From contig JAIPGZ010000002.1 of the NCBI GenBank assembly GCA_021735425.1, positions 1-64,000 on the forward strand: 64,000 nt of DNA. Direction: 5' to 3'. Below the pieces are notes generated by a model. The model was given only the letters and a program-made list of their open reading frames with translations. It had not been told where the DNA came from and did not search any database. Of this stretch, positions 2,340-54,367 are shown piece after piece. Source of the DNA: Candidatus Altimarinota bacterium. GTDB taxonomy: Bacteria > Patescibacteriota > Gracilibacteria > JAHISY01. The translations under genes and the position numbers were made by a program. The stretch's first letter is position 1. Each line of letters begins with the position of its first letter.

Positions 2340-3470
2340 TTAGTTTTTTAAGAAATGCTCGATTTTTTCAAAGGCAATTTCCAAATTTTGCAGACTCGTC
2401 GCGAAAGAAATTCTCACAAAATCAGAAAATTCCGCGCCGAAAGCCGAACCAGGCACAACTGCCACTTCCTCTTTTTCGAGCAATTCCAGAGCAAATTCTT
2501 CTCCGGTTAGTCCCGTCTTTTTGCAAACATTCAAAAAAAGATAAAAGGCTCCAGCCGGTTTTTGGATTTGGAATCCCATTTTTTTTAATTCGCGAACACA
2601 AAAATCACGACGCATTTTGTATTCCAAGCGCATTTTTTCGACCTCTGAGTCGCAATTTCGGAGAGCCTCAATTGCCGCAATTTGAGAAATTGAATTGGCG
2701 CAAAGCGCCGAATATTGATGAATTTTATTCGCGGCCGCGGTCAAATCTGCCGGCGCAAGAAGATAACCGAGACGCAAGCCGGTAAAAGCGAAAGTTTTTG
2801 AGAATCCGGAAACTGTTGCCGTTCGCGCTTTCATCTTTGGCAAACTCGCGAAAGTGGTGTGACGACCTTCGTAAGTTAATTCGGCGTAAATCTCGTCGGA
2901 AATTACGAGCAAATTATTTCGCTCCGCAATCTTGGCAATTTTTTGCAATTCGGATTTCTGGAAAGTCGTGCCAGTCGGATTCGACGGATAGCCGAGAATG
3001 ATGGCTTTGGTTCGCGGCGAAATCTTCTTTTGAATTTCAGAAATCTGTTTAACAAAAATTGGAACGCCGGCGGCGAGCTGAACCAACGGAGCGTACATTA
3101 CATAACTCGGCATGAATAAAATAACCTCGTCGCCAGGATTCAAAATCGAACGAACCACGATGTCGAAAATCTCGCTCGCTCCGTTACCGACCAAGACCTC
3201 ATCTTCCGCGGAATAATTGACTCCAAATTTGCGAGAAAAATATTTCACAATTTCTGTCCGCAACTCAAAATAACCTTTATTTGGAGTGTAATGCGTCTCC
3301 CCACTTTCTAAAGCCGCAATCGCTGCCTCGCGAACACGCCAAGGTGCATCGAAATCTGGCTCCCCCACCGACAGTGAAATCACATCCTTTCGCTCCGCCA
3401 CAATTTCAAAAAATTTCCGAATGCCGGAAGGCGGAATCGTTTCGAGGATGCGGTTGAGAGGAATCTTCAT
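2340..3470 (-). CDS. Class I/II PLP-dependent aminotransferase (AlaT/AspC-like)
   Basis: A 376-residue fold-type I aminotransferase moving amino groups between an amino acid and 2-oxoglutarate or pyruvate. Visible features are the substrate-side segment SVGEPDFDAP, the PNKGYFELR turn, the SNPTGTTF cofactor-site motif, SDEIYAELTYEG, and the PLP lysine in SGFSKTFAFTGLRLGY. Exact substrate cannot be read from sequence. I chose the ATG at 3470; a TTG four codons upstream (3482) is also possible. An Lrp/AsnC regulator lies upstream on the same strand, like the alaR-alaT pair of Bacillus, which makes alanine aminotransferase a fair guess. Confidence 0.85.
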   Translation of the reverse strand: MKIPLNRILETIPPSGIRKFFEIVAERKDVISLSVGEPDFDAPWRVREAAIAALESGETHYTPNKGYFELRTEIVKYFSRKFGVNYSAEDEVLVGNGASEIFDIVVRSILNPGDEVILFMPSYVMYAPLVQLAAGVPIFVKQISEIQKKISPRTKAIILGYPSNPTGTTFQKSELQKIAKIAERNNLLVISDEIYAELTYEGRHTTFASLPKMKARTATVSGFSKTFAFTGLRLGYLLAPADLTAAANKIHQYSALCANSISQIAAIEALRNCDSEVEKMRLEYKMRRDFCVRELKKMGFQIQKPAGAFYLFLNVCKKTGLTGEEFALELLEKEEVAVVPGSAFGAEFSDFVRISFATSLQNLEIAFEKIEHFLKN

Positions 3471-3646
3471 AGCAATTTTCAATTTCTAATTTCTAATTTT
3501 TAAACAATTTTCAATTGGTCAATTCCTTAATTTTAAAACCAATCTTTAGTTAGAGCTTGTTTGAAAAATTAGAATATTAAAACATTAGAAATTGTTTTGA
3601 AATTTAAAATTGAAAATTAGAAATTTTCGCGCCAGAGTTAGCTTAT

Positions 3647-51943: not shown

Positions 51944-52765
51944 GTGCAAACACAAAACCCAAAAATCGTTTTTACCCAAAAAGAGGTGGAGGAATACCAC
52001 AACGAACTTTTGCGAGCAGAGGCGGCAATCCGAAGGAGTATTTTTGGAGCGCGGAAAAGACGCGGCTTCGCGGAGCTTGGAAAATTTGGTATGACCGCAG
52101 CGGCAATTTTTGTAATCACTTTTGTCGGCATGAATTTCGGAGCTTTCGAGAAACGAGCGGAATTTTTGTGGGCGAATTTACCGAAAGCAGAAGTGACGAC
52201 AGAACCAGTAGCCGCAGTAGCGGAATTGAAAATTCAAAATACCGTCCCGAGTGCGGCGACATCAACGACGGAGAAATTCGAACTGCCTCTAGTTTTGGCG
52301 GAAATCGCGCCACCCGACAACCGACTGATTATCCCGAGGCTCGGAATCCACGCACCAATCAAAACTGCAACCGGTATAAATTTGCAATTCGGCAATTGGG
52401 AAGAAATCGAGAATCAAATTCAAGATGCGCTGCGGAACGGCGTAGTCAGTTTCCCTGGCACAGCGCAACCCGGCGAAAAGGGCAATGCCTTCATCACCGG
52501 ACATTCGAGCTATTACCCACTTTTCCCAGGACGGTACAAAGATGTTTTCGCACTACTGCCAAAAATCGAAATCGGGGAAGAAATCCAAGTTTGGCAGGGA
52601 CAGCAAAAATTCACTTACCAAGTCAGCGATAAACGAGAAGTCTCCCCAACCGCGACTGATGTTTTGGATGAAACTGACGATTCACGGCTAACTTTGATGA
52701 CCTGTGTCCCTCTCGGCACAGCGCTACGCCGTCTAATCGTAACCGCGCAACTCGAAGAAGTTTGA
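51944..52765 (+). CDS. Sortase (class D/E-like transpeptidase)
   Basis: A 273-residue membrane-anchored sortase. One membrane segment (about 45-66) is followed by the sortase barrel (about 110-273). The catalytic His is in FITGHSSYYP, the Cys in LTLMTCVPLG and the Arg in ALRRLIVTAQ. It attaches proteins with LPxTG-like tails to the wall. The FnIII protein at 1.7 kb (LPQSG) is a candidate substrate. The start is GTG at 51944 after a G-rich stretch. Confidence 0.92.
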   Translation: MQTQNPKIVFTQKEVEEYHNELLRAEAAIRRSIFGARKRRGFAELGKFGMTAAAIFVITFVGMNFGAFEKRAEFLWANLPKAEVTTEPVAAVAELKIQNTVPSAATSTTEKFELPLVLAEIAPPDNRLIIPRLGIHAPIKTATGINLQFGNWEEIENQIQDALRNGVVSFPGTAQPGEKGNAFITGHSSYYPLFPGRYKDVFALLPKIEIGEEIQVWQGQQKFTYQVSDKREVSPTATDVLDETDDSRLTLMTCVPLGTALRRLIVTAQLEEV

Positions 52766-52780
52766 TAAAATTCGACCAAT

Positions 52781-52825
52781 GCTGGGGTGGTGAAATCCTG
52801 CCTGCCGGCAGGCAGGGGTAGACAC
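52781..52825 (+). pseudogene. Broken tRNA-Leu 5' end with palindrome insertion
   Basis: Identical to the first 16 bases of tRNA-Leu (GCTGGGGTGGTGAAAT), then the 20-bp palindrome CCTGCCTGCCGGCAGGCAGG (52797-52816), then GGTAGACAC of the same tRNA (52817-52825), after which similarity stops. A TAAAAT box precedes it as for the real tRNA. Confidence 0.85.
52797..52816. repeat. 20-bp perfect palindrome in tRNA fragment
   Basis: CCTGCCTGCCGGCAGGCAGG. A degraded half copy is at 53113-53126. A repeat of this kind is, from memory, widespread in CPR genomes. Confidence 0.9.
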
Positions 52826-52851
52826 ATCCTAGATAAACTAAAATGACGTAA

Positions 52852-53091
52852 ATGTTTTACACTTATGTCTTAAAAAGCCGAGAAAAGAATTATATTTATG
52901 TCGGACTAACCAATAATCTAGAAAGAAGAATCAAAGAACATAATTCTGGCAAACAAAAGACAACGAGGAGTTATGCACCATTTGATTTAATTCACTCTGA
53001 AGAACTTAAAACTAGATTAAAAGCGAGAGATCGAGAAAAGTATCTAAAGTCCGGATGTGGTAAAGAATGGATTAAAGAAAAATTTATTTGA
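52852..53091 (+). CDS. Small GIY-YIG nuclease-domain protein
   Basis: A 79-residue UPF0213-type GIY-YIG protein: FYTYVLKSREKNYIYVGLTN carries the YVL and YVG elements, with the catalytic Arg in NLERRIKEHNSG and Glu later. Such proteins are single-domain endonucleases of unclear role, and relatives include homing and mobile-element nucleases. It lies between two broken tRNA-Leu pieces. TAAAAT stands about seven bases before the ATG. Confidence 0.9.
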   Translation: MFYTYVLKSREKNYIYVGLTNNLERRIKEHNSGKQKTTRSYAPFDLIHSEELKTRLKARDREKYLKSGCGKEWIKEKFI

Positions 53092-53099
53092 AATCATAC

Positions 53100-53139
53100 T
53101 GAAATGGTAGACCTACCGGCAGGCAGATACGCTGGTTTT
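53100..53139 (+). pseudogene. Second broken tRNA-Leu piece with half palindrome
   Basis: TGAAATGGTAGAC (53100-53112, identical to the tRNA-Leu D-arm), then CTACCGGCAGGCAG (53113-53126, 13 of 14 to half of the palindrome), then ATACGCTGGTTTT (12 of 13 to the tRNA anticodon arm). Confidence 0.8.
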
Positions 53140-53162
53140 CAAATGGTAAAATAACGCACGAT

Positions 53163-53246
53163 GCTGGGGTGGTGAAATGGTAGACACGCTGGTTTTAGGA
53201 ACCAGTGCCGTAAGGCGTGGAGGTTCGAGTCCTCTCCCCAGCACCA
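53163..53246 (+). tRNA. tRNA-Leu (anticodon UAG)
   Basis: A complete class II tRNA: acceptor GCTGGGG/CCCCAGC, D-arm with GGTGAAATGGTAGACACGC, anticodon stem CTGGT/ACCAG around TTTAGGA, a long variable arm (GTGCCGTAAGGCGT), T-arm GGTTCGAGTCC, encoded CCA. Source of the fragments at 52781 and 53100. TAAAAT lies just upstream. Confidence 0.95.
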
Positions 53247-53248
53247 AA

Positions 53249-54367
53249 TTATTCACAAGAAAAATTTCCGCAACTTTTTCGACAACAAAACATTTTTTTA
53301 AGCAGAAAAAAGAAAAGCAAAACAACAACGGCTGTCGTCGTAAGAATCACAATCTTCGTCAGTAAAATCGGTGCAAAAACTTTGTAAACAAAACTACCAA
53401 GCACGGCGTAGGCGACGAGCGGACAGACGAGCCCCCATTGCGAGACGTGATATTCACGGAAAAAATGACGGCGAAAATAATCCGCAAGAAGCACGAAGCC
53501 GAAAAAGAGATACCAGGTCTCAAAAGCGAATGCCGTTGTCATTACAATTTTAAAATAATTGCCAAGTTCGGCAGCGTGAAATTTTTCGAGCCAGTGCCCG
53601 AGGCGAAAAGCAGAAATCGCGTAAAGCGTAATGTTTGGGATGACAATCAAAAAACTCGGCAGAAATTGTTTCGCAGGAAGTCCGTCCGCTGCGAAATGCG
53701 ATTTGAAAATCGAAATCGTTTTAACAAAAAGTAGAAAGAGCCCCATCGAACCAGAAATCAGCGAGAGAAAAGCCGCAACATTCGCGAGCACCGCATCAGC
53801 TGCCATCGCCGCAACCCCAGTCCCTGTCACAGTCACCATCCCAAGTGTAAAAGGATGCAGTAACCAACCAAAAGAAATTTTGGCAATATCAAAACTTTTC
53901 GTAAATGAAATTGCGAGTAATTTAACTACGAAGCGCATTGTCAAAATCCATAAAACCACCCAAGCAATGAATCCAGGGAGCATCAGCATTTGCAGATTTT
54001 CGTAAAAAGCCGGAACGAAATAACGAATCGGACCAATCAAAACATTCAAAGTCATCGCGGCAGAAATGAATGGAGCGAGCAGCGCAGAATTTTGGAGTGG
54101 ATTGTCGCGAAAATTTTGGTAATTTTCATCACGCAAAAAGCGGACTAAAGGCGCAATGAGAAAAATCGTGAGTAGTAAATGCAGGGCAATGAAAAGCAAC
54201 ATATTTCCCTCTAAAATCCGGACAAGGAGCCCCCCATCGGTCTGCGAAAAGTTAATGAGCCCAGCAGGATGCGTGAGTGAATAATTGAAAAAAGCGAAGG
54301 TAATAATCGAAATACCTCCAGCACCAAGTGGCGCTAGCCAAGCGAGTGGCGAAAAGTTTTTCTGCAT
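53249..54367 (-). CDS. TDT-family (TehA/SLAC1/Ssu1-like) transporter
   Basis: A 372-residue membrane protein with about ten hydrophobic segments, the TDT layout (LAPFISAAMTLNVLIGPIRY; FGWLLHPFTLGMVTVTGTG). The family includes tellurite/dicarboxylate carriers, plant anion channels and the sulfite exporter Ssu1. The cytoplasmic C-terminus ends in a cysteine cluster (FCCRKSCGNFSCE), possibly sensory or metal/thiol reactive. It follows the CsoR-like gene by 10 nt, so it is probably controlled by it. Confidence 0.75.
   Translation of the reverse strand: MQKNFSPLAWLAPLGAGGISIITFAFFNYSLTHPAGLINFSQTDGGLLVRILEGNMLLFIALHLLLTIFLIAPLVRFLRDENYQNFRDNPLQNSALLAPFISAAMTLNVLIGPIRYFVPAFYENLQMLMLPGFIAWVVLWILTMRFVVKLLAISFTKSFDIAKISFGWLLHPFTLGMVTVTGTGVAAMAADAVLANVAAFLSLISGSMGLFLLFVKTISIFKSHFAADGLPAKQFLPSFLIVIPNITLYAISAFRLGHWLEKFHAAELGNYFKIVMTTAFAFETWYLFFGFVLLADYFRRHFFREYHVSQWGLVCPLVAYAVLGSFVYKVFAPILLTKIVILTTTAVVVLLFFFLLKKMFCCRKSCGNFSCE

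Follow-up and report, generated by a model that had tools for sequence, protein, structure and literature searches.

The Seg proteins of T-even phages, including SegB, are free-standing GIY-YIG homing endonucleases (PMC2988022, PMC13096335). SegB cuts inside tRNA genes and thereby gives rise to the tandem tRNA-segB repeats of phage T6, which have been attributed to recombination between the 5' end of the tRNA and the 3' end of segB (PMC13096335), and it shows no preference for a tRNA isotype (PMC2988022, PMC13096335). In fungal mitochondria, mobile ORF elements (mORFs) form gene hybrids, as found for atp6 of Allomyces and for atp6, atp9, cox2 and nad3 of Glomus (PMC3630166). The locus described here shares features with both systems, and we give a probability of about 0.68 to the reading that a free-standing, homing-type cassette invades tRNA genes, restores them with sequence that it carries and leaves behind a copy killed by a palindrome.

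The window, which is the whole 64,000-nt stretch of Candidatus Altimarinota DNA analysed, has an intact tRNA-Leu(UAG) gene at 53163-53246 on the + strand (ARAGORN; Rfam RF00005, E 7e-12). Upstream of it on the same strand lie a broken copy of its 5' part, a GIY-YIG gene and a second, decayed copy; all three had been proposed in the earlier note, and our reexamination bears this out. The first copy, or decoy, is identical to the intact gene and consists of nt 1-16 of tRNA-Leu(UAG) (GCTGGGGTGGTGAAAT, 52781..52796, +, an exact match), the 20-bp perfect palindrome CCTGCCTGCCGGCAGGCAGG (52797..52816, +) and nt 17-25 (GGTAGACAC, 52817..52825, +, with a right flank matching at 8/8 positions). The palindrome is a clean insertion at nt 16|17, with zero tRNA nucleotides lost and zero duplicated at the junction, and it is single-copy in the window even when up to 3 mismatches are allowed (shuffled sequences gave an expectation of 0). 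The 79-aa stand-alone nuclease gene, which belongs to the Leu clade described below, occupies 52852..53091 (+; PF01541). The second decoy (53100..53139, +), recognised by sequence comparison, is composed of three blocks: TGAAATGGTAGAC, corresponding to nt 11-23, at 53100-53112; CTACCGGCAGGCAG at 53113-53126; and ATACGCTGGTTTT at 53127-53139. The interrupting middle block is a 14-nt remnant equal to the 3' part of a variant palindrome, CCTGCCTACCGGCAGGCAGG, known from other genomes, and the second copy is a decayed decoy whose insert sat at another recurrent site, nt 23|24.

Two TAAAAT motifs are placed as putative promoter elements would be. The first (52766..52771, +), a -10-like box that probably belonged to the original tRNA-Leu leader, now precedes the decoy, and a similar ATAAAAT lies directly 5' of the intact tRNA in the relatives G001-G003; the other (53147..53152, +) lies in the new leader of the intact tRNA and may be a promoter supplied by the cassette. 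The insert amounts to approximately 380 bp with the 79-aa ORF as its single gene, and, unlike an integrative element at a tRNA gene, it holds neither integrase nor relaxase cargo. A group I intron with a homing endonuclease was rejected, because Rfam finds nothing other than the tRNA in 52600-53400.

The PF01541 profile matches the window ORF with E 2.5e-18 and 66.6 bits against a gathering score of 22.6, and the catalytic residues Y5, Y16, R26, H30 and E62 are invariant among 19 sequences. The whole of the 79 aa makes up one GIY-YIG domain, and a separate DNA-binding domain is absent; because of this absence, the architecture does not place the protein in the Seg family. The predicted structure (AF2, pLDDT 94) has as its nearest folds UPF0213 BH0048 (1ZG2) and then Slx1, I-TevI being more distant. 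UPF0213/COG2827-like proteins (YhbQ, BH0048) and Slx1 are the nearest solved structures by sequence as well as by fold, and they are likewise small stand-alone GIY-YIG proteins; the UPF0213-like genes of our class survey, unlike the window nuclease, are mostly found away from tRNA genes. Slx1 acts together with Slx4.

The genome of the window (G000) has four GIY-YIG genes, of which one, with a 676-aa frame, was named UvrC from that frame. The other three are small and share one layout, with a palindrome-broken 5' copy upstream and an intact tRNA downstream, at tRNA-Leu(UAG), Gln(UUG) and Asn(GUU), and because it recurs at Gln and Asn the arrangement in the window is not due to chance. The palindromes at the three loci are unlike each other (CCTGCC..., TCCCGCCGCGGCGGGA and TCCCGATGAATCGGGA). 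This genome also has decoys lacking an ORF, at Glu(CUC) and Thr(GGU), as well as 3' fragments at Val(GAC), Pro and Arg. The decoys at tRNA-Glu(CUC) (L024, 5520-5830) and tRNA-Thr(GGU) (L047, 1-244) are tandem and palindrome-bearing, and the Thr decoy retains its cloverleaf with the T-arm swapped for CCCCGCCAAGCGGGG. Two further palindromes in this genome were noted. On contig C11 (L023, 6657-6676), the same 20-bp palindrome lies apparently within a coding region, between GTCTACTGGACA-like repeats; on contig C19 (L031, 7089-7131), the palindrome CCTGCCTGCCGGCAGG splits an apparent 3' tRNA-Ala fragment (TTCGAGTC / CTCTCAGCTGCGCCA) located downstream of tRNA-Ala and without an ORF.

Comparison with related genomes, which the earlier note had recommended, revealed that the insert is missing from some of the orthologous Leu, Asn and Gln loci. 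In G001, G002, G003 and G005, tRNA-Leu(UAG) comes immediately after the sortase gene, with neither a copy nor an ORF. The Asn locus is filled in G000 and G003, empty in G002 and decoy-only in G001; the Gln(TTG) locus is filled in G000 and empty in G001 and G003. The Leu(GAG) locus carries a cassette in G003 and an ORF-less decoy in G002, and it is empty in G000, G001 and G005. The G003 cassette has the window's palindrome at the equivalent position, nt 17|18, and a nuclease 69% identical to that of the window. The cassettes have therefore been inserted into previously uninterrupted loci, as these empty orthologous sites demonstrate, and they decay to decoys without an ORF. The conserved sequence upstream directly adjoins the decoy, which is therefore the native 5' part, and the intact tRNA received its leader from the insert. 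At the Gln locus this is harder to judge, since the leader on the right is similar to the native one in G001.

How general the arrangement is was examined with 112 small GIY-YIG genes, comprising 80 loci fetched using the window protein (from Patescibacteria, Bacteroidota, Omnitrophota, Ignavibacteriota, Nitrospirota and others) and 32 genes from the window's family. A tRNA gene lies within 450 bp on the same strand in 87/112 and in antisense orientation in 0/112, against an expectation of 2.1% per strand. A partial copy of the same tRNA is found across the ORF in 57/87, compared with 26/1287 for tRNAs of other isotypes (null 2%), and a hairpin palindrome is present in 50 of those 57. Two mirror forms exist, 5' decoy-ORF-tRNA (n=62) and tRNA-ORF-3' decoy (n=25), the latter of which also copies the terminator, for example in L131. 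In 15/62 loci of the former type the ORF reads into the tRNA and ends there, several times at the D-loop TGGTAG/TGGTAA, and therefore the ORF and the tRNA form one unit. In either form, the tRNA gene is regenerated intact on one side of the ORF. Decoys are in tandem at L083 and L087. At L146 and L149 (upstream of 3001) the acceptor stem differs between the decoy and the intact tRNA-Leu, as if the cassette had brought a foreign tRNA gene or, alternatively, the decoy had drifted. Most loci come from metagenome-assembled genomes, which might suggest assembly artefacts or chance similarity of tRNA fragments; this explanation has practically no likelihood in our view, because loci of the same type are present in the complete chromosomes CP030886.1 and CP070644.1 and in the Bacteroidota isolate Chryseotalea sanaruensis (L148), and because they occur independently in dozens of genomes against the null of 2%.

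Nuclease lineages follow tRNA isotypes. All 51 close relatives of the window nuclease, which are distributed over at least 5 phyla, are located at tRNA-Leu or its broken copies, and nearly all of them carry the same palindrome as the window; other nuclease lineages sit at other tRNAs. In a nuclease tree made by a quick method from 81 columns and with many open forks, a clade of 49 contains 44 members at tRNA-Leu, with all five anticodons represented, and 5 for which no tRNA was called; for these 5, Leu decoys were seen by eye, and contig ends, masking or missed tRNAs explain the absent calls. On this tree, for the same rows, isotype requires 18 changes and phylum 38, so lineages keep their isotype while they spread across phyla. 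Since it recurs across many phyla and each enzyme lineage keeps to one kind of tRNA, the arrangement resembles a selfish element that enters tRNA genes and preserves their function with a replacement piece that it carries. Inheritance of the palindrome position together with the nuclease was rejected, since the position in tRNA-Leu needs 17 changes on the tree versus 19.8 when shuffled, with 26/300 shuffles as low, which is not significant. That the position hardly tracks the tree suggests that a new broken copy arises with every insertion, and for the same reason no single cut site is obvious.

Small GIY-YIG genes are not uniformly associated with tRNAs. We sampled 68 of them from other genomes of the class, picked by Pfam score irrespective of tRNA linkage; 19 have a same-strand tRNA, 2 have an antisense tRNA nearby, 9 have a decoy by the strict test and 49 are not at tRNAs. 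Because only 19/68 are at tRNAs, residence there is limited to some lineages. One other clade (L182, L187, L188, L190, L191 and L193) is found away from tRNAs, and another structured-RNA target for the clade without tRNAs was rejected, because an Rfam scan of 16 loci identified no more than one RNase P and one tRNA. In L187 (approximately 3001-3550), the upstream gene, which resembles release factor 2, has its 3' end directly repeated on the far side of the ORF, and this looks like the same duplicate-target logic at a non-tRNA target. A CCCGTTAGAGAT motif 5' of the ORF is common to L182 and L196, relatives of L187. In-frame TGA codons, and some TAA, occur in small GIY-YIG frames of G014, G034, G042, G050 and G056; the frames with TGA are either pseudogenes or belong to genomes that read TGA as an amino acid. 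A search of viral contigs, phages and plasmids found no relatives of the nuclease, and a phage or plasmid element was rejected on this basis.

The palindromes break tRNA copies in two modes. In the first, the CCTGCC palindrome is a clean insertion: 31/46 Leu decoys pass the strict test with zero nucleotides lost, and the insertion points fall at nt 14-17, 22-23, 31-32, 44 and 62. In the second, of which there are 15 cases after trivial ones were set aside, a single 17-nt arm is exchanged precisely for a TCCCG- or CCCGCC-type hairpin. In most cases this is the anticodon arm (Ala, Gln, Glu, Gly, Met and Pro); in Thr it is the T-arm, and in one Met the D-arm. The earlier note had suggested a nuclease-driven element that uses the tRNA D-arm as its target. 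The first part of this proposal stands, supported by the empty sites, by the same-strand linkage in 87/112 and by lineages that track isotype across phyla; the D-arm as target does not follow from the data, because the palindrome of Leu decoys is found at five places and other isotypes swap the anticodon, T or D arm.

REP/REPIN sequences, which are associated with RAYT, and the Rickettsia palindromic elements are short GC-rich palindromes dispersed over genomes and sometimes placed within genes. The window palindrome, too, is a dispersed repeat in 28/117 genomes of the class, where most copies have neither a tRNA nor a GIY-YIG gene beside them, and the genome of the window contains arrays of decoys alone. 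These facts could be explained if a REP-like palindrome, moved by RAYT or another enzyme, entered duplicated tRNA genes and the GIY-YIG gene were a passenger. We regard this as unlikely, because a passenger would not be expected to track tRNA isotype, because Leu-clade nucleases from at least 5 phyla have this one palindrome beside them and because quite different palindromes fill the same role in other lineages. In addition, a search for Y1_Tnp/RAYT (PF01797) in G000, which is 97.5% complete, found none, and a RAYT-borne REP was therefore rejected. The earlier note had also expected palindrome copies to be linked with tRNA or GIY-YIG genes, and the survey answered this in two ways: 22/27 copies lack a tRNA-like flank, and the 5/27 that have one exceed the 4/357 (1%) of controls. 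The palindrome as the sole mark of the element was accordingly rejected, and palindromes acting alone as the drivers that break tRNA ends, the other possibility raised there, find no support. The link between palindrome and nuclease did hold across the class, where 16/28 genomes with the palindrome have the nuclease compared with 13/89 others (Fisher 2e-5, uncorrected for phylogeny). At L287, L304 and L306, non-tRNA copies lie between short similar sequences, such as CCTCACC / palindrome / CCTCACC, which may record the insertion mechanism.

Another interpretation takes the decoys as functional RNAs. If the nuclease attacked the tRNA or its gene, decoy RNAs might titrate it in the manner of type III antitoxin repeats, forming a toxin-antidote or addiction system; decoys are often tandem (three copies at the Met locus L083) with a shared direction of transcription, and they fold stably, with z -4.5 for the window decoy and, for one Thr decoy, a complete cloverleaf whose T-arm has been replaced. 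We think this improbable, because GIY-YIG enzymes are as a rule DNA nucleases, some decoys hold only 16-25 nt of tRNA, PADLOC matches are weak and partial only, and the empty sites in close relatives indicate that the locus is dispensable. Tail-to-acceptor pairing is no better than in shuffled sequences, and selection of the decoy tail for pairing with the acceptor strand was rejected with a mean z of ~0 over 34 decoys. Still less probable is a domesticated nuclease that helps reduced genomes to maintain or repair their tRNA gene arrays, by cruciform resolution, for instance, or by SegB-like tRNA amplification. The proximity of the fold to UPF0213 and Slx1 and the tandem amplification of tRNA plus segB driven by SegB (PMC13096335) would suit such a role; the copies, however, are broken rather than functional tRNAs, and patchy presence among close relatives together with cross-phylum spread favours a selfish element.

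For the homing-type cassette, which we prefer, the following course can be proposed. The minimal UPF0213/Slx1-like nuclease would cut an uninvaded tRNA-Leu gene, and the cassette-bearing DNA would template repair of the break, with conserved tRNA sequence on either side serving as homology arms. The product has the anatomy observed in the window, namely the original leader and the tRNA 5' part as a palindrome-broken decoy, then the nuclease gene, then the cassette leader with a complete tRNA; the mirror form supplies the 3' end and terminator instead, as its anatomy shows. The palindrome would kill the decoy as a tRNA and probably also disable it as a cleavage and recombination partner. Once the ORF is lost, the decoys persist and decay, as decoy-only loci illustrate, and the tandem decoys of L083 and L087 would fit continued cutting, by analogy with the SegB-driven tRNA amplification of phage T6. 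Against the homing reading, the regenerated tRNA still contains the presumed target, the decoy being the broken copy and the intact tRNA the restored one; the protein is domain-only, unlike I-TevI and the Seg enzymes, which have a DNA-binding domain; and there are the 49/68 class-survey genes not at tRNAs. The absence of an obvious single cut site, and of a vector among the viral contigs, phages and plasmids searched, also speaks against it. It is conceivable, at long odds, that the enzyme is a structure-specific mini-nuclease of the Slx1 type whose substrates are hairpins extruded by tRNA genes, and that the palindrome is part of the mechanism: the enzyme would cut at the foot of the arms, and a palindromic hairpin would be pasted in, either inserted cleanly or exchanged exactly for a 17-nt arm. 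If true, DNA would here move by hairpin exchange, a mode that differs from known transposition and homing.

If the homing-type cassette is the correct explanation, tRNA genes house a family of minimal selfish nucleases that spans phyla, with each lineage faithful to one isotype. This would account for the fragments and tandem debris of tRNAs found in ultra-small bacterial genomes, and would assign a function to some members of a nuclease group annotated by domain alone. It also raises the questions of how 79 residues without a DNA-binding domain pick one kind of tRNA gene and of what task the palindromes have. Our search of the open-access literature found no description of this association of tRNA, nuclease and palindrome, and the large family is apparently undescribed.

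Among known systems, REP/RAYT differs in that the window's genome has no Y1 transposase and the nuclease partner is of the GIY-YIG type; most palindrome copies are away from tRNAs, yet nearly all decoys of Leu-clade nucleases carry one. The cassettes resemble SegB and the other Seg proteins in having a GIY-YIG nuclease outside introns and beside tRNA genes, and they resemble free-standing homing endonucleases in that the insertion is missing from orthologous alleles and a lineage keeps its target through horizontal spread. Unlike the Seg systems, they are chromosomal in many bacterial phyla with none found in phages, their 79-aa product has the catalytic domain only and would presumably do the cutting, and each lineage is locked to one tRNA isotype with a palindrome-broken tRNA copy alongside. 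As in mORFs, an endonuclease ORF enters a gene with a replacement gene end, and the native end becomes a displaced duplicate (PMC3630166); the ORF lies here, too, between the supplied gene end and the displaced native end, the conserved flank abutting the decoy. Whereas mORFs encode longer, mostly LAGLIDADG enzymes, have protein-coding mitochondrial targets and leave a displaced copy without a reported palindrome (PMC3630166), the cassettes target tRNA genes, at either end. By analogy, the cassette works like a combination of the free-standing homing endonuclease mode, represented by SegB, with the gene-end replacement of mORFs, and its isotype lock, palindrome-broken decoy and wide chromosomal distribution are new relative to the systems described in PMC2988022, PMC13096335 and PMC3630166.
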